DNA from: Parafrankia sp. EUN1f
GTDB lineage: Bacteria; Actinomycetota; Actinomycetes; Frankiales; Frankiaceae
Direction of reading: 5' to 3'
DNA: 64,000 nucleotides
Assembly: GCF_000177675.1 (NCBI RefSeq)
Contig: NZ_ADGX01000017.1
Span: 1-64,000, forward strand
Below the pieces are notes generated by a model. That model did not search any database, was not told where the DNA came from, and saw only the letters and a program-made list of their open reading frames with translations. The first letter of the stretch is position 1. The number at the start of each line of letters is the position of its first letter. Below are positions 2,052-48,777 of the stretch, one piece after another. The translations under genes were made by a program, and so were the position numbers.

Positions 2052-2123
2052 ATGAGCCTTTTCCGTCGTCGGCTTGGACGCGCGGTGGCCTTGGCCGTGT
2101 CCCGTGAGATGGAAAAAGCTCCA
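2052..2123 (+). repeat. 70-bp inverted-repeat element E1
   Basis: The 5' arm ATGAGCCTTTTCCGTC is followed by GTCG. The 3' side reads CGTGA then GATGGAAAAAGCTCCAT. The arms pair with a G-T opposition in CCGTC/GATGG and one extra C in the outer arm. The 3' arm ends 18 nt before the ATG of the reductase gene, which has its own ribosome binding site (GAGGAGG at 2126-2132). Confidence 0.8.
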
Positions 2124-2141
2124 TAGAGGAGGGGATTCCTC

Positions 2142-3251
2142 ATGGCGATCACCGTTTACGGCGCGAGTGGATACACCGGGCGGCTGGTGGCCGCCGGGCT
2201 TCGGCGCCGCGGATTCTCCGTCGTGCTGGCCGGCCGGGACGGTGACCGGCTGCGGGCGCTGGCGACGGAGTTGGCCGCCACGGAGCCGGGTGATTCCGTC
2301 GACGGCCGGGACGTCGAGATAGGGACACGCCAGGTCGGCGTCGACGACCCGGCGGCCTTGGCGGAGGCCTTCCGCGGCAGCGACGTCGTCGTCAACGTGG
2401 CGGGACCGTTCGCCCTGGTGGGTGAACCGGTTGTCCGGGCCGCGATCGACGCGGGCGTGCACTATATCGACACGACCGCCGAGCAGCTGTTCGTGAAGAA
2501 GGTCTTCGACGAGTACTCCGGCCCCGCCGAGAACGCCGGGGTGACCGTCGTCCCGTCCGTCGGCTTCGACATCGTTCCCGGCGATCTGCTGGCGAACGTG
2601 GTCGGTCGTCGGGTCGAGCGGGCGACCGAGCTCCTCGTGGCCTACGACGTGCGCGACTGGGACATGACCCGGGGCACCGTCCGGTCGGCCTTCGGCGCGC
2701 TGACCAGCGGCAGCTTCGTCTACAGCGACGGTGAATGGCGGCCCGGCGACGGCACGACGCCCTACGAGGCGGTGACATTCCCGGGGAACGCGGAGCCGAC
2801 GCCGGTCATCAACTGGGCGGGCCCCGAGGTCGTCACCGTCCCCCGGCACGTGCCGACCGACCGGCTGTCGGTGGTCATCAACGCCAGCATCGTCACGCCG
2901 GAGTTCCTGCAGCTGCTCCAGCTGCCCGCCGAGACCGTCGCGACCATCATCGACGGCCTCGCCGAGGGCCCGGACGAGACCCGCCGCGCGGCGGCCAGGT
3001 TCACCATCGTTGCGGAGGCCACCGGTGCCGACGGCCGCCGTGCCCGCGGTGTCCTGCACGCCAGCGACATCTACGGGTCGACCGCGGTGATCGTGGCGGA
3101 GGCCGTCCGCCGGCTGCTCGCCGAGCCGCCCCGCGCCGGTGTGCTCAGCCCCGCCCAGGCGTTCGACGCCGCGAGCTTCCTCGACTTCCTCGTTCCGCAT
3201 GGTTACTCCTGGGCCGTGGAGACGCCGGCGGACGCGCCTGCCGCGCAGTAG
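2142..3251 (+). CDS. Saccharopine-dehydrogenase-like NAD(P)-binding reductase (trans-acting enoyl reductase type)
   Basis: 369 residues. The N-terminus is a Rossmann nucleotide-binding site (ITVYGASGYTGRLVAAGL, then VVLAGRDGDRLRALA). The rest matches the saccharopine dehydrogenase-like family that includes the mycobacterial trans-acting enoyl reductase Rv2449c-type proteins, with SVGFDIVPGDLLAN near residue 145 and a C-terminal FLDFLVPHGYSWAVE. Family members reduce C=C bonds or polyketide intermediates; the exact substrate here cannot be read from sequence. A strong GAGGAGG lies 9-15 nt upstream of the ATG. Closeness to the PKS end supports a tailoring role (inference). Confidence 0.8.
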   Translation: MAITVYGASGYTGRLVAAGLRRRGFSVVLAGRDGDRLRALATELAATEPGDSVDGRDVEIGTRQVGVDDPAALAEAFRGSDVVVNVAGPFALVGEPVVRAAIDAGVHYIDTTAEQLFVKKVFDEYSGPAENAGVTVVPSVGFDIVPGDLLANVVGRRVERATELLVAYDVRDWDMTRGTVRSAFGALTSGSFVYSDGEWRPGDGTTPYEAVTFPGNAEPTPVINWAGPEVVTVPRHVPTDRLSVVINASIVTPEFLQLLQLPAETVATIIDGLAEGPDETRRAAARFTIVAEATGADGRRARGVLHASDIYGSTAVIVAEAVRRLLAEPPRAGVLSPAQAFDAASFLDFLVPHGYSWAVETPADAPAAQ

Positions 3252-3258
3252 CGGAATC

Positions 3259-3302
3259 GGCCGCGGGTCCGGGCGGGGAAACGACCGCCCGGACCCGCGG
3301 CC
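3259..3302 (+). terminator. Strong stem-loop after the reductase gene
   Basis: Two perfect 18-bp arms (3259-3276 and 3285-3302, starting GGCCGCGGGTCC and ending GGACCCGCGGCC) enclose the 8-nt loop GGAAACGA. It lies 8 nt past the stop codon and directly before element E2. There is no T-tract. Confidence 0.75.
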
Positions 3303-3309
3303 CGGAAAC

Positions 3310-3379
3310 TGAGCCGTTTCCATCGTCGACTCGAAACCGCGGCGCCCTGACCACGCACCGTGAGATGGAAAAGGCTCAT
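3310..3379 (+). repeat. 70-bp inverted-repeat element E2
   Basis: 5' arm TGAGCCGTTTCCATC then GTCG; 3' side CGTGA then GATGGAAAAGGCTCA. There is one mismatch (G opposite A) in a 15-bp pairing. The interior (ACTCGaaaCCGCGGC) is closely shared with E4 and partly with E7. It ends 33 nt before the MFS start codon. Confidence 0.85.
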
Positions 3380-3412
3380 TGGTGACATTCGCTCGAAAGG
3401 AATTCGCAACCC

Positions 3413-4993
3413 ATGACGGAAAAGCAGGAGTCCGGGGCGGCGGTGCGGGCCGTCGACGGGCCGGCGCGCGAGCCGGCCGCCGGGAGCTCTGCGCTGTCGA
3501 GCTCGGTGCCCCCGAACCAGGCGCCATCGAGTCCAGCGTCGTTCGTCTGGACGTCCGTTCACACGATCGCGTTGACGCTGTTGTGTGTCGCGGCGATGCT
3601 CGAAACCCTCGACATCACGATCGTGAATGTCGCGCTGCCCAGCATCCAGGACGATCTCGGTTTCTCCCAGGGCGACCTGCCGTGGGTGGTGAACGCGTAC
3701 ACGGTGGCGTTCGGCGGTTTCCTGCTGCTCGGTGGCCGGACCGGTGACGTGTTCGGCCAGCGGAGGATATTCGTCGGGGGAATCGCCCTGTTCCTGGCCG
3801 GCTCGCTCGCCGCGGGCCTGTCGCAGGACGCGGGCGGCCTCGTCGCCACCCGGGCGCTGCAGGGCCTGGCCGGAGCGTTCAGCATCCCGATGACGCTGGC
3901 CATGATCGCGTCGATCTTCCCGGCGGGCCCGGCCCGCAACAAGGCGCTGGCGGTCTGGGGTACCGCCGCCGGCGTGAGCAGCGCCCTGGGCGTGGTGCTG
4001 GGCGGCGTGCTCGTCAACGGGCCCGGCTGGCGGTGGATCTTCCTGCTGAACGTGCCGGTGTGCGCGCTCATCCTGGCCGGTGCCACCCGCTACCTGCCCG
4101 TGGACCGCACGACCCGGTCGCACCGCTTCGACGTCGTCGGCGCGCTCGTCTCCACCGGCGGCACCGCGCTGCTGATCTACGGGGTGCTGCAGGCCAGCGA
4201 GCACGAATGGGGGTCCGGGCGGACGATCGGCCTGCTCGCCGGCGCCGGCGTGCTCCTCGCCTACTTCGTCGTCCACGAGCTGTTCGTCGCGGCCGAGCCG
4301 CTGATGACGTTCTCGCTGTTCCGCAACCGTTCGGTGTCCGGCGCGAACGCGGTCCAGGCGCTCGTCGCGGTCGCGCTGTGGGCGATGCTGTTCTTCGTCA
4401 CCCTGTACGCGCAGGAGGTACTGCACTACTCGCCGCTGAAGACCGGCCTCGCCTACCTGCCGCTCGCCGTGACCCTGTTGGTCGCCGCGCCGTTCGGCCC
4501 GCTGCTCGTCCCGAAGATCGGCATCCGCGCCGTCGTCGCCATCGGCTGCGCGATCGTCGCCGGCGGTCTGCTGTTGTTCACCGGGATCTCGCCGGACGGC
4601 GGTCTGGGCATGAACATCATCCTCCCGTCCGTGGTCGTCAGCCTCGGGTTCGCGATCCTGTTCGTCCCGATCAACATCGCCGCGGTGACGGGCGTGCCCG
4701 CCCAGAGCACGGGCATCGCCGCGGCGCTGCTGAACGTCAGCCGCTACGTCGGGGGATCGCTCGGCTTCGCGGTCATCGCGACGCTCGCCGAGAGCCGGAC
4801 GGACGACGCGGTCCGTGCCGGTGACGCGGCGGCGGTCGCGCTCACCGAGGGGTTCAAGCTCGGCTTCGTCATCACCGCGGTGACCATGGTCGTCGGGGTG
4901 CTGGCCGCGCTGCTGCTGTTTCGCGAGGACGGTCGAGGCGAGAAGGTGGACCTCGCGGCGGTGCAGTCCGCCGCGATCGAGGGCGGCGGCTGA
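3413..4993 (+). CDS. MFS drug exporter, DHA2 / EmrB-QacA family, 14 TM
   Basis: 526 residues, the usual size for the 14-helix DHA2 family. After a hydrophilic N-tail of ~45 residues the first helix reads IALTLLCVAAMLETLDITIVN, the family's helix-1 D-x-T-I-V-N motif. Motif A follows helix 2 (GGRTGDVFGQRR). Further hydrophobic segments continue to residue ~505. Predicted role: proton-driven efflux of a hydrophobic compound, plausibly the local polyketide (inference). The ATG at 3413 has AAAGGA about 10 nt upstream. The gene stands alone, preceded by E2 and followed by a convergent SARP gene. Confidence 0.9.
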   Translation: MTEKQESGAAVRAVDGPAREPAAGSSALSSSVPPNQAPSSPASFVWTSVHTIALTLLCVAAMLETLDITIVNVALPSIQDDLGFSQGDLPWVVNAYTVAFGGFLLLGGRTGDVFGQRRIFVGGIALFLAGSLAAGLSQDAGGLVATRALQGLAGAFSIPMTLAMIASIFPAGPARNKALAVWGTAAGVSSALGVVLGGVLVNGPGWRWIFLLNVPVCALILAGATRYLPVDRTTRSHRFDVVGALVSTGGTALLIYGVLQASEHEWGSGRTIGLLAGAGVLLAYFVVHELFVAAEPLMTFSLFRNRSVSGANAVQALVAVALWAMLFFVTLYAQEVLHYSPLKTGLAYLPLAVTLLVAAPFGPLLVPKIGIRAVVAIGCAIVAGGLLLFTGISPDGGLGMNIILPSVVVSLGFAILFVPINIAAVTGVPAQSTGIAAALLNVSRYVGGSLGFAVIATLAESRTDDAVRAGDAAAVALTEGFKLGFVITAVTMVVGVLAALLLFREDGRGEKVDLAAVQSAAIEGGG

Positions 4994-5015
4994 CCGGGCC
5001 CGGGTCTGGGCCCGG
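4994..5015. terminator. Bidirectional stem-loop between convergent genes
   Basis: CCGGGCCC (4994-5001) pairs with GGGCCCGG (5008-5015) around GGGTCT. It lies between the stops of the MFS gene (+) and the SARP gene (-), so it could serve both. Confidence 0.6.
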
Positions 5016-5073
5016 GCACGGACAGCCCCTGGGCGGGTCGGGACGAATCCGTGGCCGGCCCGGCCCGGGGAGG

Positions 5074-5847
5074 TCAGCCGGCGAGCCGGGCCATGCCCAT
5101 GTGCCGGTCGCCGACCAGGATCGCCCGCTGCACGTCCTGTAGGGAGCGGCAGGGCTCCAGGCCCAGCTCGTCGCGCAGCCGGGTGCGGGCCGTCCGGTAG
5201 ACATCGAGTGCGTCGGCGACCCGCTCGGCCCGGTACAGCGCAACCATGAGATGGCGGTAGAACGGCTCGTGCAGCGGGTGCTCGGTGATGAGTGAGTACA
5301 GCCTGGGCACGAGCCGGCGGTGGCGGCCAAGCTCGAGCTCCGCCTCCAGGTTGGCCTCGAGGCAGCCCAGCCGCTGTTCGGCCAGCCAGGTGTCATACCA
5401 GACGATCATCGGGCTGGCGGTCGGCCGGCCGAGCAGCTGGCCCCGCCACAGCCCGAGCGCCCGGTCGAAGCAGGCCACGGCCTCCGTGTACTTCTTCAGT
5501 CGGACGTGCTCGTGCCCGCGCGCGGCCAGGTCCAGGAAGTCGTGGGCGTCGAGCGTGTCGTCGCCCAGATCCAGCAGATAGCCCGGGGCCCGGGTCACGA
5601 TCGGGCTGTCCGTCCGGTCCGGCCGGGCGAGGAACTTGCGCAGGTTCGACACCATCACGTGGATGCCGGCGTTCGCGCTCCGTGGCGCGGCCGCCCCCCA
5701 GATCTCGTTGATGAGCTGGTCGGCCGACACCACTTCGTTCGGGCGGACCAGGAGGGTGGCCAGCAGGGTCTCCATCTTGGGGGCGCTGATGAAGCAGTGG
5801 CCGTCCTGCTTCGTCACCCGAAGAGGTCCGAGGATCTCGTATCTCAT
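5074..5847 (-). CDS. SARP-family transcriptional activator (OmpR-like wHTH plus BTAD)
   Basis: 257 residues, the typical length of a short Streptomyces-type SARP. Residues 1-95 are a winged helix (MRYEILGPLRV, KMETLLATLLVRPNEVVSADQLINEIWG, then IVTRAPGYLLDL). Residues ~100-250 are a bacterial transcriptional activator domain (FYRHLMVALYRAERVADALDVYRTARTRLRDELGLEP). These proteins activate antibiotic clusters by binding direct heptamer repeats, and three such repeats with an 11-bp period lie upstream at 6062-6090. Start ATG at 5847. The C-terminus ends soon after the BTAD, with no ATPase module. Confidence 0.9.
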   Translation of the reverse strand: MRYEILGPLRVTKQDGHCFISAPKMETLLATLLVRPNEVVSADQLINEIWGAAAPRSANAGIHVMVSNLRKFLARPDRTDSPIVTRAPGYLLDLGDDTLDAHDFLDLAARGHEHVRLKKYTEAVACFDRALGLWRGQLLGRPTASPMIVWYDTWLAEQRLGCLEANLEAELELGRHRRLVPRLYSLITEHPLHEPFYRHLMVALYRAERVADALDVYRTARTRLRDELGLEPCRSLQDVQRAILVGDRHMGMARLAG

Positions 5848-6061
5848 TGTTGTCCCATCGTGTCTCGTGGGGCGGTGCGTGCGGGCACGAATCGGTGTCC
5901 GGTTCCGCGTGACGGCGCGGCGGAGAGATCAGGGCTCGGATGGTCTGCAGAAATCACCAGGTGTTTCGGTGCCGGCGGGCCGGAGAAAACCCGGGATCCG
6001 GGGCGCGTTGAACTGCGGCGCGACGCTCCTTCAATAATTGCCTGAGAATTGTCCGCAGGGT

Positions 6062-6090
6062 ACCCCTGAAGACCCCCTAGGCAACCCCTA
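6062..6090 (-). promoter_or_regulatory. Three heptamer direct repeats, 11-bp period (candidate SARP operator)
   Basis: ACCCCTG (6062-6068), CCCCCTA (6073-6079) and ACCCCTA (6084-6090) are spaced exactly 11 bp start to start. On the minus strand they read TAGGGGT, TAGGGGG, CAGGGGT toward the SARP gene 215 nt downstream. Heptamers repeated once per helical turn are the known binding pattern of SARP activators. That the neighbouring SARP binds them is inference. Confidence 0.5.
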
Positions 6091-6124
6091 TACAGCTTCT
6101 TTCTGTCGTAATGTTAACCGGAAA

Positions 6125-6149
6125 TGTCAGGGCCTTTTCCTTCTCCCGG
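6125..6149 (-). repeat. Degenerate half of an E element
   Basis: The minus strand contains GGGAGAAGGAAAAGGCCCTGA, close to the E-element 3' arm GTGAGATGGAAAAGGCTCA. No matching 5' arm is visible within 80 nt, so it is either a decayed copy or chance. Confidence 0.35.
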
Positions 6150-6264
6150 TGGTATGGGTAGCCGCGAGGATGAGTAGGTGACGGAATAGGTTCGCTGATG
6201 GTGACCGATGTCACGCCGTACTGGTCGCGGTGGATCGTGGATTGTGGAATATCGGCGCCGGCGC

Positions 6265-7965
6265 CTACGCGGGATCTTCGCGGGCGAACTGCGTGAAAGC
6301 GGCACGCAGGCCGGCGCGGCCTTTCAGTCCGAGTTTGCGGTAAACCCGGGTGAGATGCTGCTCGACCGTACTCACGGTGATGTGCAGGATTCTGGCGATC
6401 TCCCGGTTGGTACCGCCCAGTGCCGCCTGCACCGCGACCTGATGTTCGGCCGAGGTGAGTGGGTCGCCCTCCGCACCGGGCGACCCGATCCGCAGCCGCA
6501 GCAGCGCGACCGTCGCCCGTTGGACGTCGTCGGAGCAGGCCAGGTGGGCCAGCCGCAGGCACCCGGCGGCGAAGTGCCGATCGCGGTCGAGGGCCTCCTC
6601 GATCGCCCGGCACAGCACGGCGAACGCCCACGGTCCCGGCTGGCGGTGCGCGGCGATCAGGTGCGCGGCGACGGTGCGCGCCGGCGCGCCGTCGATGTGC
6701 AGCAGGCGGGCAGCTTGCTGGTGCAGGTGCGCCCGTTCGTCCGGGGACATCTCGGCGAGCACCGCGGCCCGGGCGGCCGGATGCCGGAACCGGCCCGCGC
6801 CCAGCAGGCCGGCACGTTCCAGCAGGCCGGCACGGTCCAGCAGGTCCAGGGCCCGTTCGACGGTCGGCTCGTCCGCGTCGACGAGCTGGCGTAGCGACGC
6901 GGACGAGTCGGACTCGGCGAGGATCGCCAGCCCGCGGGCGACCTGGAGCAGGTCGGGCCCGCCGCGGTGAAGGCAGGTCAGGTAGGCCTGGCCGAAGGCC
7001 GTGCCGGCAACCGGCTCGGCGACCTGGGCGAGTCCGGTGAGCTCGGTGAGCTCGGTGAGTTCGGCCGGTTCGGCCGGTTCGGGTTCGGTGGGTTCGGGGA
7101 GCCCGGTGGGTTCGGGGAGTGCGGTGGGTTCGGGGAGTGCGGTGGGTTCGGGGAGTGCGGTGGGTTGCCCGGCCACGGCGGCGGCGTCCTCGATCAGAGC
7201 ACGCAGCAGCAGCGGGTTCCCGCCGCTGACGTGGTGCCAGCGCGCGGTCGGGACCGCGTCGACGGACCGTCGGAGCCGGGTTTCGAGCAACTCGGCCACC
7301 CCCTGCGGTGACAGCGGGGAGACCTGGATCCGGTGGCAGTGGGGCTGGCGCAACAGGTCGATGTGCCAGGAGGCCCGCCGAGCGTCCGTCCCCACGTGCC
7401 CGATGTTCTCGCTGACGACCATCAGCACTCGCGACGCACGCAGCCAGCCGCCGAAGTACGCCAGGCAGCGCAGCGACGCCACGTCGGCGAACTGCAGGTC
7501 GTCGACACCGATGACGACCGGGACCCGGCGCGCCAGCGTGTCGACCACCGACCACAGGTCGTGCACGGCGCTGGTCGACAGCTGGTCGGCGGGGCCCTCG
7601 TCGGTGTCGGTGCGGGCTGCGGGGGCAGCGCCGGCGGCGGCGCGCCAGGCGAGGTCGCCCTCGGGGCCTGAAAGCGGTGGTGCGCGGAAAAACTGGCGCA
7701 CCAGGGCCAGGGGTTTGTCGCGTTCGGCGGGGGAGGCGAGCGCGGTCAGCACCACCGCGCCCGTCGCCGCCGCATCCTCGACCAGGGCGTTCAACAGTTC
7801 GGTCTTGCCGGTCGCGACCGCCCCGGTGAGCACTACGACGCTGCCGGCCCCGAGCCTGCCGCGGGCCAGCAGCCGGGTGAACACCGCGATCTCCGCGGCC
7901 CGTTCGATCAGGCCGTGAGGACGCCGCGCCGCCTTCCCACCTGTGGGTCCCTCTCCGACCGCCAA
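6265..7965 (-). CDS. LAL-type LuxR regulator (AAA ATPase plus GerE HTH), short form
   Basis: 566 residues, shorter than the usual ~900 of LAL/MalT-type regulators. Walker A GAVATGKTELL lies near residue 50 and Walker B-like VPVVIGVDDLQFADVASLRCL near 150. The C-terminal GerE domain reads LTSAEHQVAVQAALGGTNREIARILHITVSTVEQHLTRVYRKLGL. The middle TPR-like region is reduced, and between about residues 265 and 310 there is a low-complexity insert of repeated PEPTAL and ELT units from an 18-bp tandem repeat. Family members are ATP-dependent activators of secondary metabolism. It is adjacent to the SARP gene on the same strand. Confidence 0.85.
   Translation of the reverse strand: MAVGEGPTGGKAARRPHGLIERAAEIAVFTRLLARGRLGAGSVVVLTGAVATGKTELLNALVEDAAATGAVVLTALASPAERDKPLALVRQFFRAPPLSGPEGDLAWRAAAGAAPAARTDTDEGPADQLSTSAVHDLWSVVDTLARRVPVVIGVDDLQFADVASLRCLAYFGGWLRASRVLMVVSENIGHVGTDARRASWHIDLLRQPHCHRIQVSPLSPQGVAELLETRLRRSVDAVPTARWHHVSGGNPLLLRALIEDAAAVAGQPTALPEPTALPEPTALPEPTGLPEPTEPEPAEPAELTELTELTGLAQVAEPVAGTAFGQAYLTCLHRGGPDLLQVARGLAILAESDSSASLRQLVDADEPTVERALDLLDRAGLLERAGLLGAGRFRHPAARAAVLAEMSPDERAHLHQQAARLLHIDGAPARTVAAHLIAAHRQPGPWAFAVLCRAIEEALDRDRHFAAGCLRLAHLACSDDVQRATVALLRLRIGSPGAEGDPLTSAEHQVAVQAALGGTNREIARILHITVSTVEQHLTRVYRKLGLKGRAGLRAAFTQFAREDPA
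7087..7158. repeat. 18-bp tandem repeat inside the LAL gene
   Basis: Four units of GGTGGGTTCGGGGAGTGC (the first ends CCC) stand in a row, in frame, encoding repeated TALPEP on the minus strand. Flanking triplet-rich sequence encodes PEPTEPEP and ELTELTELT. A linker of variable length is likely. Confidence 0.85.
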
Positions 7966-7969
7966 CGCG

Positions 7970-9955: not shown

Positions 9956-10905
9956 CGGCTCGCCCGCCAGTCGACCCGTCCGGCGAAGCGGGCCTGCGCG
10001 TACCGGCCGACGACCGTCACCGCGATCACGGTTCCGGTGATCGCCGCACCCGGGAACACCCCTGTCCACCAGGCCGTCTGGAGGAAGTCGCGGCCCTCGG
10101 CCAGCATCAGGCCCCACTCCGAGTTCGGTGGGCTCGACCCGAGGCCGAGGAAGCTCAACGCGGACGCGTACATGAGCGCGGTGCCGAACCCGACCGTGGC
10201 CAGGACCAGCACCGGGCCGAGCGCGTTGGGCAGGACATGGCGCGCGATCACCACACCGCGACGCAGGCCGAGCCCGACCGCGGCCTCGACGTAGCCGGAG
10301 CGCAGCACCACCATCGCCTCGGTGCGCACCAGCCGTCCGTACACCGGGACGAGGGCGATCGCGATCGCGATCACGGTGTTCGTCGTCCCGGCTCCGAGCA
10401 CGGCGACCACCAGCAGCGCGAGCAGGATTGGGGGCAGTGCGAGCAGCACGTCCGTCAGCCAGGTGAGGATCCGCTCCGCGCCGCGCCCGCCGAGCACCGT
10501 GGCCAGGCCGAGCACCACGCCACCGGTGACGGCGAGGCCGATCGCGGCGAGGCCGAGCAGCAGTGACGTGCGGGCCCCGTAGACGACGCGGGTGAACACG
10601 TCGCGGCCGAGCTGGTCCGTGCCGAACCAGTGGCCCGCTCCCGGTCCGACCAGTGCCTGCCCGGGGTCGATGTCGGTTGGCGCGCCGTCGGTCAGCAGCC
10701 CCGGCGCGACCGCGACGAAGGCAGCCAGCGCCAGCACCGCGGCCGCGACGACAACACCCGGCCGGGGGACCGACAAGCCGCGTGGACCCGGACGCCGGGC
10801 GCCGCCCGTGACCACGGTGTCGATGCCCGCCCCGGTGTCGATGCCCGTCCCGGTGTCGATGCCCGTCCCGGTTTCGATGTCCGTCTCGGTGTCGATGTCC
10901 GTCAC
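9952..10905 (-). CDS. Peptide/nickel ABC importer permease (DppC type)
   Basis: 317 residues. The first ~30 residues are a hydrophilic repeat (DTGTGI units) encoded by five 18-bp tandem repeats that include the start codon itself. Helix 1 follows (VVVAAAVLALAAFVAVAPGLL). FGTDQLGRDVFTRVVYGARTSLLLG is the DppC hallmark, and the EAA loop is EAAVGLGLRRGVVIARHVLPNALGP. Five to six TM segments. The GTG start overlaps the upstream permease stop (GTGA) and the stop overlaps the ATPase start, so translation is probably coupled through three genes. Confidence 0.92.
   Translation of the reverse strand: MTDIDTETDIETGTGIDTGTGIDTGAGIDTVVTGGARRPGPRGLSVPRPGVVVAAAVLALAAFVAVAPGLLTDGAPTDIDPGQALVGPGAGHWFGTDQLGRDVFTRVVYGARTSLLLGLAAIGLAVTGGVVLGLATVLGGRGAERILTWLTDVLLALPPILLALLVVAVLGAGTTNTVIAIAIALVPVYGRLVRTEAMVVLRSGYVEAAVGLGLRRGVVIARHVLPNALGPVLVLATVGFGTALMYASALSFLGLGSSPPNSEWGLMLAEGRDFLQTAWWTGVFPGAAITGTVIAVTVVGRYAQARFAGRVDWRASR
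10816..10905. repeat. 18-bp tandem repeat at the 5' end of the DppC gene
   Basis: Five units of GGTGTCGATGCCCGTCCC with small changes run to position 10905. They encode the first 30 residues of DppC, and the last unit supplies the GTG start. The repeated residues lie on the cytoplasmic side before helix 1. Confidence 0.85.
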
Positions 10906-11834
10906 AGCGCCGCCGCCGTCCGCAGCCTCGGGTCGAGCGCCAGCTGCACCAGGTCCACCAGGATGAACACGACGGCCACCACCGTGGCGGTCAGCAGGAC
11001 CACGCCCAGCACGACCGGCATGTCCCGGCTGGACACTGCCTGCAGCAGCAGCGAACCGAGGCCGGGGCGACCGAAGACGGTCTCCACCAGCACCGCGCCG
11101 CCCAGCAGCGAACCCGTCACCCAGCCGGTCAGCGTGAGCAGCGGGGCCGCCGCGTGCCGGACCGCGTGCCGCAGTCGCACCCCGATCCGGCTGCGGCCCC
11201 GGGCCCGGGCGGCGACGACGAACGGCTGCTCCAGCGCCGTCTCGATTCCCTCCCGCAGCACCTGCGCCAGCACCCCGGCGACGGGCAGCGCGAGGGTGAC
11301 CGCCGGCAGCACCAGCGCCGTGAGGTCCTGCGCACCCGCCACCGGGAAGAGGTTCAGGCGGAACGAGAACACCGTCAGCAGCACGATCCCCAGCCAGAAC
11401 TGCGGGGTGGACAGCGCCACCAGCTCCGCCAGCGTGACCACGGCGCGCAGTGCCGAGCGGCGGCCCGCCGTGACCACCGCGGAGACCACCGCGATGACCA
11501 CGGCGAGGGTGACGCTCGCCGCGACGAGCTGCACCGTCGGCCACAGCTGCTCCTCGATGAGCGTGGTGACCGGCTGCTGGAGCTGGTAGGAGCGGCCCAG
11601 GTCACCCGTCACCAGATCGCCCAGGTAGTGCAGATAGCGCACCGGTACCGGCTCGTCGAACCCGAAGTCGACCCTGATCTGCTCCCGGACCTGCGGGGAC
11701 GCCGACGTGGCCGGCCCCAGCATGACCGCCACCGGGTCCCCGGGCAGCAGCTGCAACGCGGCGAACGCGAGGGTCGCCGCCCCGAAGACGACCGCGCCCG
11801 CGCGGGCGAGCCGCCGCCCGACCGCGCGCAGCAC
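10902..11834 (-). CDS. Peptide/nickel ABC importer permease (DppB type)
   Basis: 310 residues. Helix 1 is AGAVVFGAATLAFAALQLLPGDPVAVMLG, the conserved DppB N-terminus. The middle holds LGRSYQLQQPV and LVALSTPQFWLGIVLLTVFSF, and the EAA loop reads ARARGRSRIGVRLRHAVRHAAAPLL. I chose the GTG at 11834 because GGAGG lies about 8 nt upstream. An in-frame GTG at 11873, at the edge of element E3, would add 13 residues but has no clear ribosome binding site. First gene of the permease-permease-ATPase run. Confidence 0.9.
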   Translation of the reverse strand: MLRAVGRRLARAGAVVFGAATLAFAALQLLPGDPVAVMLGPATSASPQVREQIRVDFGFDEPVPVRYLHYLGDLVTGDLGRSYQLQQPVTTLIEEQLWPTVQLVAASVTLAVVIAVVSAVVTAGRRSALRAVVTLAELVALSTPQFWLGIVLLTVFSFRLNLFPVAGAQDLTALVLPAVTLALPVAGVLAQVLREGIETALEQPFVVAARARGRSRIGVRLRHAVRHAAAPLLTLTGWVTGSLLGGAVLVETVFGRPGLGSLLLQAVSSRDMPVVLGVVLLTATVVAVVFILVDLVQLALDPRLRTAAAL

Positions 11835-11873
11835 GACCCACCTCCGTGGCCGAACGGGTTCGACGGCCTTCAC

Positions 11874-11944
11874 TGAGCCTTTTCCCTCTCACGTTTGTCG
11901 AGCGCTGTATCCACAGGCCGGAGCCGACGAGGGAAAAGGCTCAT
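11874..11944 (-). repeat. 70-bp inverted-repeat element E3
   Basis: Read on the minus strand: ATGAGCCTTTTCCCTC then GTCG, interior, then CGTGA and GAGGGAAAAGGCTCA. The arms pair perfectly, and the CCCTC/GAGGG pair replaces CCATC/GATGG of other copies, a two-sided change that keeps pairing. The interior TACAGCGCTCGACAAA is shared with E5. It lies between the lipoprotein stop and the permease, 39 nt before the GTG at 11834. Confidence 0.88.
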
Positions 11945-13632
11945 TTCCGGTCGCGCCAGGCGTCGTAGAACAGCGGCCAGGCGTTCGTGTCGAAAGCGAT
12001 CCCGTGGACGTGCTTGCCGGCGGCGAGGATGGACGACGGTGTGTAGACGGGCACGACCGCGCCGATCTTGACCACCCGCTGCTGGGTGCGCCCGTAGACG
12101 TCGTCCCGAACCTTCTCGTCGAAGGTGCCCGCACCGGTCGTCGTCCAGGTGTCCACCTCGGGGTCCTTCACGAACGCGGCGTTCTGGCCGCCGCCGGCCA
12201 GGGCGCTGGCCGAGTGGAAGAACAGCCGCAGCACGTCCGGCTCGAACCGGGCCCAGCTGAAGTCCAGGACCGCGTACTTGCCCGCGTACGCCTCCTTCAG
12301 GTAGGTGCCGGCGTCGAGCGACGGACGGGTGAGCTCGATGCCGATCTTCTTGAGGTCCTCCTGGAACGCCTGGCCGAGGACGTCACGCTGTTCGCGGACG
12401 GTGGCCGGGATGATCGGCCAGGCGACGGTGAGCCGGCGGCCGTCACGGGTGCGGTAGCCGTCGGCGTCACGGCCCGTCCAGCCTGCCTCGTCGAGCAGCT
12501 GGTTGGCCTTGGCCGGGTCGTAGGGCCAGCTGTTCTCGAGGCTCTTGTCGTAGGAGGGCGTGACCGCGGTGAGCGGGCTCCAGGAACGCTTGTACTGGCC
12601 GAAGTAGACGGTCTTCACGTCCTGGTCGATGTTCAGGCCACGCTGGAAGGCGACGCGCACCCGCTCGTCGGTGAACGGTGCCAGCGTGGTGTTCAGGTAG
12701 AGGCTGTACGGCGAGCCCGCGGCGTCGCGGCGCAGCACCTGCAGGCGCCCGTTCGCCTCGACCGCGGCGACGTTCGCCGGCGGCACCGCACCGGCGACGT
12801 CGATCTGGCCGCTGGTCAGCGAGCCGATCCGGGTGGAGTTCTCCTTGAGGATGCGGATCGTCAACGTGTCCAGGTAGGCGGCGCCGGTGTGCTTCGCGGT
12901 CGCCGGTGCCCAGCTGTACGCCGGGTTCTTCGTCAGGACGATGCTCTGGCCCTTGGTGTAGCTGGTGAAGGTGAACGGCCCCGTGCCGACCGCCACCGGG
13001 CCGCCGCCGCACAGCTTGTCCGCGTCGGCGGTGAGCGTCTTCGGCGAGTAGAAGCCGAGATAGGCGGTGCTGGCCGCCTGCAGGAACGGCGCGAAGGGCT
13101 GGGCGAAGTTCACCCGGGCGGTGAACTCGTCGACGACGTCGGTGCCGGTGTAGCTGCCGAGCAGGCTCGCGGCGTACCGCGACTTCGTCGTGGGCGCCTT
13201 GATGTGGTCGAAGTTCGCCTTCACCGCGGCGGCGTCGAAACGGGTGCCGTCGGTGAACGTGACGTCCTGGCGGAGCTTGAAGGTGTAGCTCTTCAGGTCC
13301 GGCGAGGTCTCCCAGGAGCTCGCCAGCCACGGGTGGAACTTGCCGGACTCGTCCTCGGCGACGAGCGAGTCGAACACGTTGCGCTGGATGGCCGCGGTGA
13401 TGTCCTGCGGGCTGACGTGGATGTCGAAGCAGGTCGGCTCGGTGTCGATCGCGTAGGTGACCGACCCGCCCGCGACCGGCTTCTCGGCGGTGCCGGTGCC
13501 CGTGCCGGCGGCGCCCGGAGCGGGGTCGTCGTCGGAGCCGCAGGCGGTGAGCAGGAGTCCCGCGGCGAGCGTCGCCGCCACCGCGAGTCGTAGGGGCCGT
13601 GCCACTGGACGTCCGGGTCTGGGGAAACGCAT
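11941..13632 (-). CDS. Peptide/nickel ABC substrate-binding lipoprotein (DppA/SBP_bac_5)
   Basis: 563 residues. Signal peptide and lipobox LLLTACGSD near residue 30. The SBP_bac_5 fold shows in VTYAIDTEPTCFDIHVSPQD, LASSWETSPDLKSYTFKLRQDVTFTDGTRFDAAAVKANFDHI and RVRVAFQRGLNIDQDV. It should capture a peptide, nickel chelate or similar solute outside the membrane and hand it to the permeases. It is upstream of the permease genes with E3 between them, so the operon order is lipoprotein, E3, permease, permease, ATPase. The ligand cannot be told from sequence. Confidence 0.92.
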   Translation of the reverse strand: MRFPRPGRPVARPLRLAVAATLAAGLLLTACGSDDDPAPGAAGTGTGTAEKPVAGGSVTYAIDTEPTCFDIHVSPQDITAAIQRNVFDSLVAEDESGKFHPWLASSWETSPDLKSYTFKLRQDVTFTDGTRFDAAAVKANFDHIKAPTTKSRYAASLLGSYTGTDVVDEFTARVNFAQPFAPFLQAASTAYLGFYSPKTLTADADKLCGGGPVAVGTGPFTFTSYTKGQSIVLTKNPAYSWAPATAKHTGAAYLDTLTIRILKENSTRIGSLTSGQIDVAGAVPPANVAAVEANGRLQVLRRDAAGSPYSLYLNTTLAPFTDERVRVAFQRGLNIDQDVKTVYFGQYKRSWSPLTAVTPSYDKSLENSWPYDPAKANQLLDEAGWTGRDADGYRTRDGRRLTVAWPIIPATVREQRDVLGQAFQEDLKKIGIELTRPSLDAGTYLKEAYAGKYAVLDFSWARFEPDVLRLFFHSASALAGGGQNAAFVKDPEVDTWTTTGAGTFDEKVRDDVYGRTQQRVVKIGAVVPVYTPSSILAAGKHVHGIAFDTNAWPLFYDAWRDRK

Positions 13633-15368: not shown

Positions 15369-15835
15369 CGCCGTGAAGAGCCGTCACGGTCGCCGGTGAG
15401 AACGGGAAAGAGAAAGGCGACGGCGGTAGCCGTCTCGGTGAGCCTTTTCCATCTCACGGTCCACGGGCACGGATGCCGCGGGTCCGAGTCGCCGATGGAA
15501 ATGCCTAGTCGTCGGCCCGGTGCCGTGGACATGCGGCGGACTTGATCCGCTGAAGGTCAATGTGACTCCGGGTAACCAGTTGCGCCGATCTGTACACGGG
15601 AGCAACCGAAACATGTCTGACGTGCCAGGTCAATGGGGATCAATGTGTGATGCAAGTCACTTCTTCACTTTTTAGATCGTCAAAGAAGCATTACGGACAG
15701 TTCTGTACTGTGCTCGGTGGGACGCAGCCGTGGTGAGGCTGAGCCGGTCTGTCATCGCCCTGTCACCAGGTCGCCCGGTCCGCTCTGGTGTGCTGCCCGT
15801 CCCAGCCCGATTTCCTGACCTCGGAGCGTTGTGCG
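15369..15835. other. Divergent promoter region between permease and binding-protein genes
   Basis: 467 bp without a gene. E4 occupies the permease-proximal part. The right half is unusually AT-rich for this genome (about 15640-15710), which fits promoters for the plus-strand binding-protein gene. I could not assign -35/-10 boxes with confidence. Confidence 0.5.
15439..15507 (-). repeat. 70-bp inverted-repeat element E4
   Basis: Minus strand: AGGCATTTCCATC then GGCG, interior GACTCGGACCCGCGGC, then CGTGA and GATGGAAAAGGCTCA. The inner 8-10 bp pair; the outer 5' arm has decayed. The interior closely matches E2. It lies 70 nt before the permease start. Confidence 0.8.
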
Positions 15836-31936: not shown

Positions 31937-32008
31937 TGACCATTTTCCATCTCACCTTTGTCGAGTGCTGTAGCCACGGGCCAGCGCCGACGATGGAGAA
32001 GGGTCATT
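31937..32008 (-). repeat. 70-bp inverted-repeat element E5
   Basis: Minus strand: ATGACCCTTCTCCATC then GTCG, interior with TACAGCACTCGACAAA (shared with E3), then GGTGA and GATGGAAAATGGTCA. Pairing is weaker than in E3 (two mismatches). Unlike most copies it points away from the nearest gene: the lysozyme-like gene starts about 100 nt to the right on the plus strand. Confidence 0.78.
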
Positions 32009-38627: not shown

Positions 38628-38640
38628 ATGCCACCGGTGA

Positions 38641-43649: not shown

Positions 43650-43655
43650 CGGGCA

Positions 43656-44999
43656 CTACGAGATCTTCGCGATGGCGCCGCAGGAGAGGGCCGGCGCGCT
43701 CCACTTGCCGTCCTTGAGGTGGGCGAGTGTTCCGCAGGGTGATGCGGCGACATGGTTCAGCGGCCAGCGGGTCTCCGGTACCGCCCCGGTGACGTAGTTG
43801 GTGTAGTCGCCGTTGAGGGTCTTCAGCAGCGCATCGACGGTGAGGTCACGCCCGACCTTCTGCAGGGCCGTGACGAGCATGTCGGCCGCCCAGTAGCCGG
43901 CCATCGCCGGCAGGCTGTCCGGCAGGTCCGGGGCGTACGCCTTGAAGTCCGTCAGCATCTGGTTGATGCCGGCGATGTCCGTGGACAGACCAGGCTGCCA
44001 CTGCATGACCGCGTAGGTGTCCGCGAGCTCCTTCGCCCCGGCCAGGCGCGGGTCGTAGAAGGGGGTGAGCAGGATTCCGTCGTACCCGGCCGCGCGGAAG
44101 GCGCCGAGCAGCTTCACGGCGTCACCGACCGGCGTGACCATGAACACCGCCGCCGGCGGCGCACCCTGGTCGGCGGTCATGACCGCCTGGACGATCGGAG
44201 TCGGGTCGGAAAGGCCGGAGACGGGGATCGGTGTCTTCTCGTAGACGACGTCGAATCCGGCGGCCTGGAATCCCTGGGCCACGGTGATGTTTCCCTGGCG
44301 AGCGGCGTCGTTGTCGATGCCGATCATCGCGATGCTCTTCGGGGATCCCGCTGGGATGAGGGCGTTCACCATCGCGGGCGGCCCGGTGTTCACCGAGATC
44401 CGCTGCTCGGCGGTGGGTGTCTGACAACCGACGATGCTGAAGCCGATGGCGTTTCCGCAGAAACCGCTTTCGGTTCCCCAGCCGAAGAACGGTGTGACCT
44501 CTTTGCAGAACGTGTCGAGGTAGCTGGACGTCGTGGTGAGCACCGGTGCCGCGGCGAAGACCTCCTCCCGCGACACGAGCGAGGTGGCCTGGGCGGAGTT
44601 GCGCGCCGGATCCGAGCCGTCGTCGCGCACGCCGATGTAGTCGATCTTGCGGCCGGCTATCCCACCCTCGGCGTTCGCGCGGGCGAATCGCGCCTTTGCG
44701 CCCGCGTCGGCGTCACCGAACGCGATGCCGCTGGGGCTCGTCACCGTCGCCAGTCCACCGATCTTGATGGACGTGTCGGTGACACCGCGAGTGGGGTTCG
44801 AGGCCTTGCCCTGGCAGTCCAACGAGGCCGGGTCGACGGTGACGTCGGTCTGGTTCCAGCCGTGGTCCGCGCCGAGCTTGAGCAGGGCCGGATCCACGGC
44901 GGCGGTGTCGTTGCCGCTGTCCCCGCCGCCGCATCCGGCGATTCCGACAACACCTGCCACAGCCAGGATCAGCACCGATTTCCTGAATAACCTTCGCAC
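43656..44999 (-). CDS. Type-1 periplasmic-binding lipoprotein (branched-chain amino acid / amide family)
   Basis: 447 residues from GTG at 44999, chosen because GAGAGGAAACC precedes it and the signal peptide with lipobox (VVGIAGCGGG) begins there. The fold shows in TDTSIKIGGLATVTSPSGIAFGDADAGAKARFARANAEGGIAGRKIDYIGVRDDGSDPARN, IAMIGIDNDAARQGNITVAQGFQAAGFDV and LTPFYDPRLAGAKELADTYAVMQW. No permease or ATPase gene is adjacent, so it is an orphan receptor or serves a distant transporter. Element E6 lies 107-178 nt upstream. Confidence 0.88.
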   Translation of the reverse strand: MRRLFRKSVLILAVAGVVGIAGCGGGDSGNDTAAVDPALLKLGADHGWNQTDVTVDPASLDCQGKASNPTRGVTDTSIKIGGLATVTSPSGIAFGDADAGAKARFARANAEGGIAGRKIDYIGVRDDGSDPARNSAQATSLVSREEVFAAAPVLTTTSSYLDTFCKEVTPFFGWGTESGFCGNAIGFSIVGCQTPTAEQRISVNTGPPAMVNALIPAGSPKSIAMIGIDNDAARQGNITVAQGFQAAGFDVVYEKTPIPVSGLSDPTPIVQAVMTADQGAPPAAVFMVTPVGDAVKLLGAFRAAGYDGILLTPFYDPRLAGAKELADTYAVMQWQPGLSTDIAGINQMLTDFKAYAPDLPDSLPAMAGYWAADMLVTALQKVGRDLTVDALLKTLNGDYTNYVTGAVPETRWPLNHVAASPCGTLAHLKDGKWSAPALSCGAIAKIS

Positions 45000-45105
45000 C
45001 TGGTTTCCTCTCTTCTGTGAAACCGGACATCGTGTGTCAGGGCCCTGCCCGTCGAGGGCCAAGATGCCCGCGGCGCCGTCGTCCTCGCCGCGAGCCCCGG
45101 TCGTC

Positions 45106-45177
45106 ATGAGCCTTTTCCGGCGTCGACGCGGACCTGCGACGACCCTGAATGGCAAACGTGAGATGGAAAAGGCTCAA
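45106..45177 (+). repeat. 70-bp inverted-repeat element E6
   Basis: ATGAGCCTTTTCCGGC then GTCG; 3' side CGTGA then GATGGAAAAGGCTCAAT. The outer 11 bp pair perfectly; the inner GGC/GAT pair has one wobble and one mismatch. It ends 3 nt from the mscR stop. In reverse orientation it lies in the upstream region of the binding-protein gene. Confidence 0.82.
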
Positions 45178-45180
45178 TGG

Positions 45181-46263
45181 TCATGGGATGACCACCGAGC
45201 GCAGGACGTCTCCGGTGTGCATCCTGGAGAACGCCGCTTCGACGCCGTCCAGCGAGATCTCCTCGGTGACGAAGGCGTCCAGGCCGAGCCGGCCCTGAAG
45301 ATAGAGATCGATGAGCATCGGAAAATCCCGCGACGGCAGGCAGTCGCCATACCAGGACGACTTCAGCGCGCCGCCGCGACCGAACACGTCGAGCAGTGGC
45401 AGTTCGAGAGTCATCTCCGGCGTGGGGACGCCGACCAGGACGACGGTGCCAGCCAGGTCGCGGGCGTAGAAGGCCTGTCGGTAGGTTTCCGGGCGGCCGA
45501 CGGCGTCGATCACGACATCGGCACCGAAGCCGTCGGTGATCTCCCGGATGGCGGCGACCGGGTCGAGTTCCTTCGCGTTGACGGTGTGGGTCGCGCCGAA
45601 GCCCTTCGCCCACTCGAGCTTGCGGGGATCGGTGTCCACCGCGATGATCTTGGCCGCGCCGGCGAGGTGGGCGCCGGCCACCGCGCCGTCTCCGACGCCG
45701 CCACAGCCGATCACCGCGACGCTGTCACCGCGGGTGACCCCGCCGGTGTTGACCGCCGCCCCGATACCGGCCATCACTCCGCAGCCGAGGAGCCCGGCTA
45801 CGGCCGGGCGTGCGGCGGGGGAGACCTTCGTGCACTGGCCGGCGTGTACCAGGGTCTTCTCGGCGAAGGCGCCGATGCCCAGGGCCGGTGACAGCGCCGT
45901 CCCGTCGGGCAGCGTCATGGGAACGGAGGCGTTGTGGGTGGCGAAGCAGTACCAGGGCCGGCCCCGCAGGCAGGCGCGGCAGGTGCCGCAGACCGCCCGC
46001 CAGTTGAGCACCACGAAGTCGCCGGGGGCCACGTCCGTCACGCCGGCGCCGACCGACTCGACCACTCCGGCGGCCTCGTGCCCCAACAGAAAGGGAAAGT
46101 CGTCGTTGATGCCACCGTCGCGGTAGTGCAGATCGGTGTGACAGACCCCGCAGGCCTGTATCCTGACGACCGCCTCGCCCGGGCCGGGATCGGGCACCAA
46201 AATGGTGGTCAGTTCTACCGGCCTGCCTTTTCCGCGGGCGATCACACCACGGACTTCCTGCAT
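45181..46263 (-). CDS. mscR: S-(hydroxymethyl)mycothiol dehydrogenase (mycothiol-dependent formaldehyde dehydrogenase)
   Basis: 360 residues. This is a close match to actinobacterial Msc[38 protein letters not shown] carries the catalytic-zinc Cys and His, and [22 protein letters not shown] is the structural-zinc Cys cluster. The NAD site is [31 protein letters not shown]. The enzyme oxidises the mycothiol-formaldehyde adduct and can reduce S-nitrosomycothiol. Start ATG at 46263. Element E7 ends 20 nt upstream. Confidence 0.93.
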
Positions 46264-47040
46264 TATCGGTCTCCTCGGAACCCTCAGAATATTTTCCGTC
46301 TCACGGCGCGGGAGTGTCAGGGGCGCCGCAGGCGCGAGTCGACGATGGAAACGGCACCCGACAGATCCGCCCCGTGCCGCCATGCCGCCTTGTGAGACCC
46401 GCTGGCGGCCGGTCCAGGAACATCTGCGCATCGCGTTGAATCACCACCTCGGGCCGGTGGATAACGGGAATGTGGAACGAGAAAAATCGGCAAGCACAGT
46501 CGTGGAATCGCGGGAACGAGAGAGCTCGGGGTGCGCGGCCGTGGCGGGGCGAGGCCCGCGCCACGGCGAGCCTCGCGTCGTGCCACGCGCAGCCCGCACG
46601 TCGCAGTCGTTGCCCCGGTCGCTGCCTCGGCCTCCGCTCCGCGCGTCGCCGTCGCTGCCCCCGTCGCGGTCGAGATCGCCCCTGACGTGCTGTGCCGGCA
46701 GGGCGGTCACTCATCACCAGCTTCCAGAGGGGACAATGACACATATGATGGATCGATGTTTCTTCTGGGGCAACGTCCAATCCGGAGATCGATCGATCGC
46801 TGTGCGTAGTGGTTTTCTGATCCGGTCGCCTGGAGGATGGTGAGGTGACCGGTGCCGACCGGACGGCTCGGTGGTGCTCCGCGTCTGGCGGGGCCAGGAG
46901 GGGCGCGCGGCAACGGGCGGGCGCAACCGGGGTTACAGAGTGCAAGAACACTTCTTGACCCGCGGGGCCGCCGAGGGCGGGTAGGACAGTCCGGACGGGC
47001 AGGGCACAGGGCCGTGGTCAGGCAGCAGGGAGTGGCAGGC
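46264..47040. other. Long intergenic region between mscR and TetR genes
   Basis: 777 bp. E7 lies at its left end. A stretch around 46560-46690 is rich in CTCGG/CGTCGC near-repeats. The region 46735-46830 is less GC-rich (ATATGATGGATCGATG) and may carry the TetR promoter. No gene is supported; open frames here lack coding character. Confidence 0.45.
46284..46358 (-). repeat. 70-bp inverted-repeat element E7
   Basis: Minus strand: GGTGCCGTTTCCATC then GTCG, interior GACTCGCGCCTGCGGC, then CGTGA and GACGGAAAATATTCTGA. Only the core TTTCC(A)TC/GA(C)GGAAA still pairs; the outer arms have diverged. It lies 20 nt upstream of the mscR start in the usual orientation. Confidence 0.7.
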
Positions 47041-47670
47041 ATGGGTCGCAGAGGGTGGGCCGGCGTACCGCCGGCCGACGACGCCCAGGCGCGCGAACGC
47101 ATCATCGACGCCGCGATCCACAGCGTGGCGCTACGCGGGGCGGCGGGAACCACCCTGTCCAACGTCGCGACCGACCTCGGTGTCATCCGTAAGACGGTCT
47201 ACCGCTACTTCACGAGCACCGAGGAACTCTTCGCCGCCGTGTCAGACGCCGCGGCGGAACGCTTCGTGGCACAGTTCGAGGCGAACTTTCCCACGGACGT
47301 CGACGACATCGCCGATTTTCTGGTCGAGGCGATGGCGTTCATCATCGAGCGGTTCCCGGACGAGCCGCTGCTCATGCTGCTGCTCGCCGGCGGCTACCCC
47401 ACCACGTTCAGTCGGCGGATGATGGCGCCCGCCCAGATCGCCCGCGTGCGCACGATCCTTGTCAACCGGCGCGTGAACTGGGCGGAACTCGGCTACGACG
47501 ATGAGATGCTCGATCAGCTCGTCGAGCACGTGCTTCGGATCATGCAGTCACTGATCCTGGCCCCGCCCGACCCGCCCCGGACGGGACAGGAGCTGCGCAC
47601 CTACCTCCGCCGCTGGGTGGGTCCCGTCCTGTTCCCGGCTTCGCAGCGGGTCCCGCGTCCCGTCGGTTAG
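47041..47670 (+). CDS. TetR-family regulator
   Basis: 209 residues from ATG at 47041, with GGGAG about 8 nt upstream; an extension to 46852 has no protein-like sequence. The HTH is ARERIIDAAIHSVALRGAAGTTLSNVATDLGVIRKTVYRYFTSTEELFAAV. The ligand domain is all-helical (FLVEAMAFIIERFPDEPLLMLLLAGG, MLDQLVEHVLRIMQSLILAPP). It is divergent from mscR and convergent with the FGE gene. Ligand unknown. Confidence 0.88.
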   Translation: MGRRGWAGVPPADDAQARERIIDAAIHSVALRGAAGTTLSNVATDLGVIRKTVYRYFTSTEELFAAVSDAAAERFVAQFEANFPTDVDDIADFLVEAMAFIIERFPDEPLLMLLLAGGYPTTFSRRMMAPAQIARVRTILVNRRVNWAELGYDDEMLDQLVEHVLRIMQSLILAPPDPPRTGQELRTYLRRWVGPVLFPASQRVPRPVG

Positions 47671-47701
47671 CCGCCCGGGGTGTGCTGTCACTGCTGCCGA
47701 C

Positions 47702-48631
47702 TCAGGCCGCCACCCGGAATCCGATGTTGCCGGCTGAGCTGTCGGGGGTGTTCGAGCTGCGCGCGGCGACGCGATAACGGTTGCAGTAGGACGAGTGACA
47801 CATGTGCGAGCCGCCGCGCATGACCTTGGCGAGGCCACCGGGCGGCCCGGTCGGATTCGTACGCGGGCCGGTGGTGTGAAAGTCGGCGCTGAACCAGTCC
47901 GCGCACCATTCCCAGACATTGCCGACGACGTTGTAGAGGCCGTGGCCGTTGGGACGGTAGGCCTTGGCCGGGGCGGTGCCCAGGTAGCCGTCCGCCCCCG
48001 TGTTCACCGTCGGGAAGACGCCCTGCCAGATGTTGCACTGGTGCCGACCCTTCGGCATCAGTTCATCACCCCACGGGTAACGGCGCTGCTCCAGGCCGCC
48101 GCGCGCGGCGTACTCCCACTCGGCCTCGGACGGCAGGCGGGTGCCCGCCCAGGCGCAGTAGGCCTGCGCGTCGTTCCACGAGACGTGCACGACGGGATGG
48201 TTCTGGCGCGATGCGATGGACGAGCCAGGTCCTTCGGGGTGTTTCCAGAACGCCCCGGCCACCGCGTGCCACCAGGGCACCTCGTGGACGACGGGCGAGT
48301 TCCTGCTGACCTCTTCGGAAAGGAAGCCCTCGAAGACGAAGGAGAAATCGTGACGCTCCGCGTCGGTGGCGTACCCGGTCGCCTTGACGAACGTGGCGAA
48401 CTGGGCGTTGGTCACCGTCGTCGCCTCGATGGCGAAGGGGCTCAGGTCGATCTCCCGGACCGGCCCTTCGCCGTCCGCGGGGTAGCCCTCCTCATCCTCG
48501 GTACCCATGAGGAAACGCCCGCCGGGAAGCTTGATCATCCGCGTCGTGCGGGCGCCGGCTGCTCGGATGGGCGCCGCCGCGCCTCCGGCGGTGCCGGGAT
48601 CGCGGCCGGGGGTGCAGCAGGAAGCAGACAT
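47702..48631 (-). CDS. Formylglycine-generating enzyme (sulfatase maturase, SUMF1 family)
   Basis: 309 residues, ATG at 48631. FGE-fold motifs: MIKLPGGRFLMGTEDEEGYPADGEGPVREIDLSPFAIEATTVTNAQF, HPVVHVSWNDAQAYCAWAGTRLPSEAEWEYAARGG and YNVVGNVWEWCADWF. The C-terminal RGGSHMCHSSYCNRYRVAARSSNTPDSS contains C278 and C283, the copper-binding pair of aerobic FGEs. It oxidises the sulfatase cysteine to formylglycine using oxygen. The target is most likely the sulfatase encoded next upstream (48796-50223), whose CAPSR motif fits. Element E8 lies between the two genes. Confidence 0.95.
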   Translation of the reverse strand: MSASCCTPGRDPGTAGGAAAPIRAAGARTTRMIKLPGGRFLMGTEDEEGYPADGEGPVREIDLSPFAIEATTVTNAQFATFVKATGYATDAERHDFSFVFEGFLSEEVSRNSPVVHEVPWWHAVAGAFWKHPEGPGSSIASRQNHPVVHVSWNDAQAYCAWAGTRLPSEAEWEYAARGGLEQRRYPWGDELMPKGRHQCNIWQGVFPTVNTGADGYLGTAPAKAYRPNGHGLYNVVGNVWEWCADWFSADFHTTGPRTNPTGPPGGLAKVMRGGSHMCHSSYCNRYRVAARSSNTPDSSAGNIGFRVAA

Positions 48632-48704
48632 GGGTTTCTCTTCGTTTTCTCGTCGTCGGACCGGTCGCGGTGGCCCGTCCCGTGGGGTCGGACCACCGCC
48701 ACCA

Positions 48705-48777
48705 GTGACCCTTCTCCGTCTCACCGCCCACAGCCAGGGATTCCGCGAGTCCGCGTCGACGACGGAGAAAGCTCCGG
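48705..48777 (-). repeat. 70-bp inverted-repeat element E8
   Basis: Minus strand: GAGCTTTCTCCGTC then GTCG, interior, then GGTGA and GACGGAGAAGGGTCA. The pair TTCTCCGTC/GACGGAGAA replaces TTTTCCATC/GATGGAAAA of other copies at two paired positions, so both arms changed together. It lies 73 nt before the FGE start and 18 nt past the sulfatase stop. Confidence 0.8.

Follow-up and report, generated by a model that had tools for sequence, protein, structure and literature searches.

The stretch of DNA that we have analysed (the window: 64,000 nucleotides, positions 1 to 64,000 of contig NZ_ADGX01000017.1 of Parafrankia sp. EUN1f) encodes, among other proteins, a saccharopine dehydrogenase-like enzyme, an MFS transporter, a solute-binding protein, a permease, a zinc-binding dehydrogenase and a sulfatase; in the gaps between such genes, or at their very ends, copies of a palindromic repeat of about 70 bp are located. 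The first-pass annotation of the window, made from the sequence alone, had listed eight copies (E1 to E8); all eight are real and are located where it had placed them, within one or two flanking bases, but a ninth copy had been missed (Table 1). Our comparison of the window with its own genome (G000, a 9.35-Mb draft of 396 contigs), with a close relative of the same genus (G004, 80 contigs) and with further relatives indicates that the repeats very probably belong to a single family of miniature inverted-repeat transposable elements (MITEs), moved in trans by a transposase of the IS5 family, and probably orphaned and decaying in G000 and G004.

Table 1. Copies of the 70-bp repeat in the window, their surroundings and the corresponding sites in relatives (G001, a congener)
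Copy	Type	Coordinates	Strand	Surroundings	Site in relatives
E1	A	2053..2122	-	between genes 775-2055 and 2142-3251	absent in Frankia tisae and G001; present in G004, there about 47 bp longer
E2	A	3310..3378	-	between genes 2142-3251 (saccharopine dehydrogenase-like) and 3413-4993 (MFS transporter)	absent in Frankia tisae and G001; in G004 a second, oppositely oriented copy abuts E2
Ninth copy (profile match)	strongly decayed	6129..6193	+		both flanks match a place in G004, itself strongly diverged
E3	B	11874..11943	+	on the stop codon of the solute-binding protein gene 11941-13632 (minus); upstream of the permease gene 10902-11873 (minus)	precisely absent in G004
E4	decayed A	15439..15507	+		common to G004, diverged there
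E5	B	31937..32006	+		missing from closely matching sites in G004 and G001
E6		45107..45176	-	just downstream of gene 45181-46431 (minus; zinc-binding dehydrogenase)	absent in G004, where the left flank also differs, so that the empty site is not clean
E7	decayed A	46285..46357	+		common to G004
E8	A	48706..48775	+	just downstream of gene 48796-50223 (minus; sulfatase)	absent in G004, where the site reads CAGTGAGCC

Once turned alike, the eight repeats share one oriented consensus, in which TGAGCCTTTTCCATCTCACG is followed by about 30 variable nucleotides and by GTCGACGATGGAAAAGGCTCA; the unit is asymmetric, with E1, E2 and E6 opposite in orientation to E3, E4, E5, E7 and E8. The family as a whole has the ends TGAGCCTTTTCCATC...GATGGAAAAGGCTCA, inverted arms of about 15 bp and two conserved inner boxes (arm, box and flank composition being taken from 154 of 173 copies), and its unit of about 70 bp is, like that of other MITEs, below the size of a transposase gene. 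The outer arm TGAGCCTTTTCC, with up to two mismatches, occurs at 15 sites in the window, where 2.1 would be expected and none of 100 shuffles reaches 15. The inner boxes had been described as GTCG in the left arm and CGTGA or GGTGA in the right arm of every copy: this holds for E1, E2 and E6, while the other copies, being in the reverse orientation, have CTCAC on the left and CGACGA on the right (CGCCGA in E4). Likewise, the paired changes that had been noted between the arms are present in E2 (CCATC/GATGG), E3 (CCCTC/GAGGG) and E8 (TTCT/AGAA and CCGTC/GACGG), but the pairing is imperfect in E4, E5 and E7, which have mismatches at further arm positions; among the interior subtypes, the one that joins E3 and E5 is genuine (type B).

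The best aligned stretches of G004 are 90-99% identical to the window, and this relative lacks E3, E5 and E8 at closely matching sites and shares E1, E2, E4 and E7; G001 is without E1, E2 and E5, and Frankia tisae without E1 and E2. Empty sites are thereby seen in relatives for E1, E2, E3, E5 and E8, and less cleanly for E6, as they are for MITEs. The other trace of insertion that the first-pass annotation had proposed to look for, a target duplication, has also been found: in 97 of 139 copies the bases that adjoin TGAGCC on its left and GGCTCA on its right are the same, where 38.2 would be expected and none of 1000 shuffles reaches 97, and the flanking 3-mers are identical in 44 of these copies, against 12.8; the count covers 139 of 150 distinct copies, the G004 partner of each shared copy having been removed beforehand. 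At the adjoining flank positions, C-A is preferred on the left and T-G is preferred on the right, with no significant further covariation, and only one base, the middle one, is duplicated beyond chance; taken together, the duplicated middle base and the C-A and T-G flanks indicate a CANTG-like target of which one base is clearly duplicated. A 5-bp CANTG duplication and a plain 3-bp ANT duplication have both been rejected, since covariation between the flanks is limited to the middle base; the empty site of E5, where the right-hand A is missing in both G004 and G001, also speaks against them. Where adjacent copies are located within 150 bp of each other, a gap of about one base separates the elements in 14 of the 17 pairs, a spacing that would be expected if the element end and the duplicated base together recreate a CANTG-like target.

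The repeat is multi-copy and dispersed, again as a MITE is, with 132 distinct copies in the G000 stretches that we have compared. A covariance model built from the eight copies has at least 137 matches in G000 (at least 129 without second-strand repeats) and at least 113 in G004 (at least 110 without second-strand repeats), at most 150 candidates having been scored in each genome; the core pattern has 47 exact matches in G000 and its reversed form has none. The exact core pattern is found in two of 35 genomes of the bacterial family, namely G000 and G004, and a scan of named genomes has given no exact match, in a collection that may omit near relatives. Among named records, that of Frankia tisae Agncl-8 comes closest to a window gene, with 85% protein identity, which makes a Frankia species the probable host. 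Four other congeners, including G001, have no match to the covariance model among the 150 candidates scored, save for one weak match in G003. The latter (G003:C289:5029-5123, L154) is a lone, degenerate relative of the repeat in a congener where no other copy has been detected, and it may point to an earlier round of spread.

The ends of the repeat recur in an insertion sequence (IS) of G001, which is located inside the gene that matches the window gene starting at 2142 and is split over two contig ends (C149 and C161; L152 and L153). The IS ends, GAGCCTTTTCCATC, are identical to the repeat arms at 14 of 14 bases and are flanked by a 3-bp ACC duplication; the sequence GAGCCTTTTCCRTC occurs at exactly four sites in G001, all of which are IS ends (three left, on C20, C143 and C149, and one right, on C161). 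The duplication is read in the one copy that is readable on both sides; the other left flanks are ATT and CAG, and two of the three left flanks that have been read fit a CANYG-like target. The ISL2 group of the IS5 family makes a 3-bp ANT duplication, and the G001 element may be ISL2-like. A 140-residue fragment of its transposase matches PF13613 (HTH_Tnp_4, E=2.6e-18) over the cut-off, and matches PF13359 (DDE_Tnp_4, E=0.00046) and the IS5-family model NF033581 (E=5.3e-16) below their cut-offs, the NF033581 cut-off being set for the full length and the query being partial; on this fragment, the putative partner of the repeat has an IS5-type DDE transposase. Its relatives, found by protein search, are 78% identical in G003, where the copy has the readable end GAGCATTTTC after CAGT, and 52-53% identical in G002, where there are two. 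The repeat thus shares its ends with an autonomous element, as MITEs do, although this partner sits in a congener and not in the same genome. In G001, the gene interrupted by the IS5-family element is saccharopine dehydrogenase-like, and it has probably been inactivated.

The mobile nature of the repeats, for which the first-pass annotation had suggested a non-autonomous mobile element, is strongly supported by the empty sites, by the duplicated base, by the more than 100 dispersed copies and by the ends that are identical to those of the G001 IS. In the mechanism that we propose, an IS5-family transposase of the HTH_Tnp_4 and DDE_Tnp_4 type, recognising GAGCCTTTTCCATC ends, would have moved the repeat in trans into CANTG-like targets, with duplication of the flanking base; each element end, together with that base, may then have offered a renewed target for further insertions, giving rise to arrays. 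The copies that survive are almost only those between genes, and a TGA stop codon would be a favoured survivable site, because both ends of the element supply TGA.

Several observations weigh against this explanation. The IS and the repeat have only the 14-bp ends in common, their interiors being unrelated by eye; the IS, which unlike the repeat encodes a transposase, has not been found in the repeat-carrying genomes G000 and G004, and G001, which has the IS, has no repeat among the 150 candidates scored. The IS also has a 3-bp duplication, while around the repeats the excess over chance is confined to the middle base, so that the register of cutting may differ. Solitary arms, where an autonomous copy might be located, have been followed only in part (in G000, among about 100 of 135 places listed), and the compensatory cells of the arms number 81, against 37.5 in shuffles (169 copies), which a plain MITE does not need.

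Relatives of the G001-type transposase have not been found in G000 and G004 at the thresholds used (protein E <= 1e-10; PF13613), though the fragmented G000 draft may hide a collapsed IS copy; for want of such a relative, the repeat family looks orphaned. Paired arms 100-3500 bp apart give five candidates in G000, with no IS among them: the 904-bp candidate (L177) uses the arm of a normal copy, and two others (L193 and L196) each enclose a copy of a different repeat. An autonomous copy at the partnerless arms of G000 has also been considered and rejected, since those on C313, C394, C181, C232, C244, C316, C326 and C336 look, by eye, like truncated or interrupted copies or chance matches; about 100 of the 135 places were listed for this purpose, and the reading frames were viewed for two contigs, with no protein-family search. 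The family, then, looks orphaned in the genomes that are rich in it, and the transposase occurs where no repeat has been found; with the repeat but no detected transposase in two species and the reverse in a third, this split distribution offers a practical example of an orphaned MITE.

The genes around the copies have been called with a home-made predictor based on GC content. By these calls, 124 of the 132 copies in G000 are located between genes, two are inside genes and six are at the edges of loci, while 6300 of 20400 positions drawn at random from the same loci (31%) fall between genes. The flanking genes are co-directional around 82 copies, divergent around 27 and convergent around 15, the intergenic DNA of these loci being divided into about 60%, 30% and 10%, respectively, and the strand of the element among the 82 same-direction cases is mixed (34/48); there is no leader-like bias in either respect. 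The two ends of the genes differ in their contact with the element: the 3' ends that face a copy overlap the element end by 1-4 bases in 24 of 112 cases, while none of the 136 facing 5' ends does so, one being flush and one overlapping by 34 bases. In 22 of the 24 overlaps, the stop codon is TGA followed by arm sequence, from which it appears that the element's own TGA serves as the stop of the gene and that, with TGA supplied by both ends, insertion would restore the stop. This restoration has been checked against an empty site for E3 only, where the alignment shows that the G004 gene also ends with TGA at the same point; elsewhere, the element may instead have truncated the gene. Such sites hint at a route by which a palindrome that carries TGA at either end can enter tight operons without harm.

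The covariation between copies, which the first-pass annotation had reported, is borne out by the excess of compensatory cells given above; the count takes in 15 arm pairs from 169 of the 173 copies, with shared copies counted in both species and with shuffles made within each column. The compensatory changes occur chiefly at arm positions 3, 6 and 12, and they are outnumbered by the unpaired cells, of which there are 324 against 383 in shuffles. A structured cis-acting RNA (a leader, a riboswitch-like element or an mRNA-stabilising hairpin) that is kept by selection on its pairing would produce such an excess, and E3 is located between a binding-protein gene and a permease gene, which is a classical place for mRNA-stabilising hairpins. 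Orthologous copies tell otherwise: in 50 of the 53 one-to-one G000/G004 pairs, 131 of 700 arm cells differ, 118 on one side and 13 on both, and only two of the 13, hence two of the 131 changed cells, are paired in both species. Of the one-sided changes, 71 create or destroy a pair and 37 leave the pairing intact, as selection on pairing would have it; the other 10 are unpaired in both species. The double changes themselves are somewhat in favour of an RNA, with 13 against 8.2 in same-column shuffles (93 of 2000 shuffles reach 13) and, over positions 3-12, with 10 against 4-6 when the partner is slid by 1-3 bases; there is a slight tendency of arm partners to change together, yet the pairing is not maintained between orthologous copies. 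Divergence rates, taken from 51 of the 53 pairs with the nearest 30 bases as the near flank, show that the arms diverge at least as fast as this flank (0.111 against 0.104 at A/T sites and 0.057 against 0.040 at G/C sites) and faster than the flanks further out, while the interior diverges at 0.161 (A/T) and 0.066 (G/C). The inner boxes, at 0.077, are slightly slower than the near flank at A/T sites, in line with a constrained RNA; the overall pattern is what decaying mobile DNA gives. With no Rfam family matched in the whole window at gathering scores, with sites that are empty in relatives and with the mixed directions and strands described above, a cis-acting RNA is very unlikely.

The two conserved inner boxes might also mark a protein-binding operator or a chromosome-organising site, but in orthologs their rate of change at G/C sites (0.055) is not below that of the near flank, and the presence or absence of the element differs between close species at the same loci, so that we give this explanation hardly any credence; the proposal of a cis-acting RNA or operator is not upheld, and the riboswitch or operator question is largely settled for this repeat. 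A palindrome of the REP kind, moved by a single-strand transposase of the IS200/IS605 type (RAYT), would likewise be short, intergenic, palindromic and clustered, as the repeat is; it is, however, highly improbable in view of the duplicated flanking base and of ends that equal those of an IS5-family element. As for the covariation between copies, it is real, and subfamilies may suffice as its cause within a MITE family. In some shared copies the divergence exceeds that of the flanks (G000_12 and G004_32 differ at 10 of 69 bases, with flanks that are 97-98% identical), and this excess could come from conversion between copies. It is conceivable, albeit unlikely, that the arms are re-matched by copying, either through hairpin-templated correction or through conversion from copy to copy, so that covariation of the RNA kind would arise with no RNA role behind it, and that insertion at stop codons in operons also creates an mRNA hairpin by which the neighbouring proteins are set to a new ratio, as E3 might do for the binding protein and the permease. 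Covariation that is present among MITE copies but not maintained in orthologs is a warning for RNA discovery from repeat families.

Among known systems, RUP is believed to be mobilised in trans by an insertion sequence (IS630-type element, TA targets); the present repeat differs from it in its IS5-type ends and its CANTG-like target, and in that no resident transposase has been found. Repeats of the REP, ERIC and Correia type are palindromic and intergenic and can act as RNA hairpins; they have different ends and a different presumed mobiliser, and pairing is not maintained in the present repeat. The RUP and BOX repeats of pneumococcus, as outlined in PMC3049150, resemble it in being small interspersed repeats. 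The MITE of Porphyromonas gingivalis, in the outline given by PMC4596501, is also a bacterial one, and is set apart from ours by description only, having another host and containing a minisatellite. An insertion-sequence survey of three Frankia strains (PMC2770080) does not use the word MITE in its main text, and the IS5 row of its table has the value 2. The titles and abstract beginnings of the papers found on Frankia repeats and insertion sequences, on actinobacterial MITEs, on MITE insertion at stop codons and on ISL2 targets contain no description of this element, which is probably a new and abundant MITE family with IS5-type ends in a probable Frankia lineage.

Two minor observations concern repeated sequence in and near the elements. 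The longer version of E1 in G004 (L151) contains units that are repeated internally, for example GTGGACTCTCGGCGA. A second dispersed palindrome, CAAGAGTTGAGGATTTTGGTCGTTCC...CCAAAATCCTCAACTCTTGC, about 51 bp long, is located in the window at 52214-52265, 471-520 and 566-615, with similar copies in L031, L118, L119, L141, L147, L158 and L176 (21 distinct copies have been kept); the copy at 52214 folds with -40.7 kcal/mol (z -8.2). Its outer stem covaries with its partner (GAGTT/AACTC, GAAGT/ACTTC, GATCT/AGATC and GTAGT/ACTAC) around a constant core, and this covariation looks, by eye only, stronger than that of the 70-bp repeat. In L193 (arms at 2786 and 3002, 217 bp) and L196 (arms at 2669 and 2995, 327 bp), arms of the 70-bp element type enclose a copy of the second repeat; these stretches are apparently nested insertions or larger derivatives.

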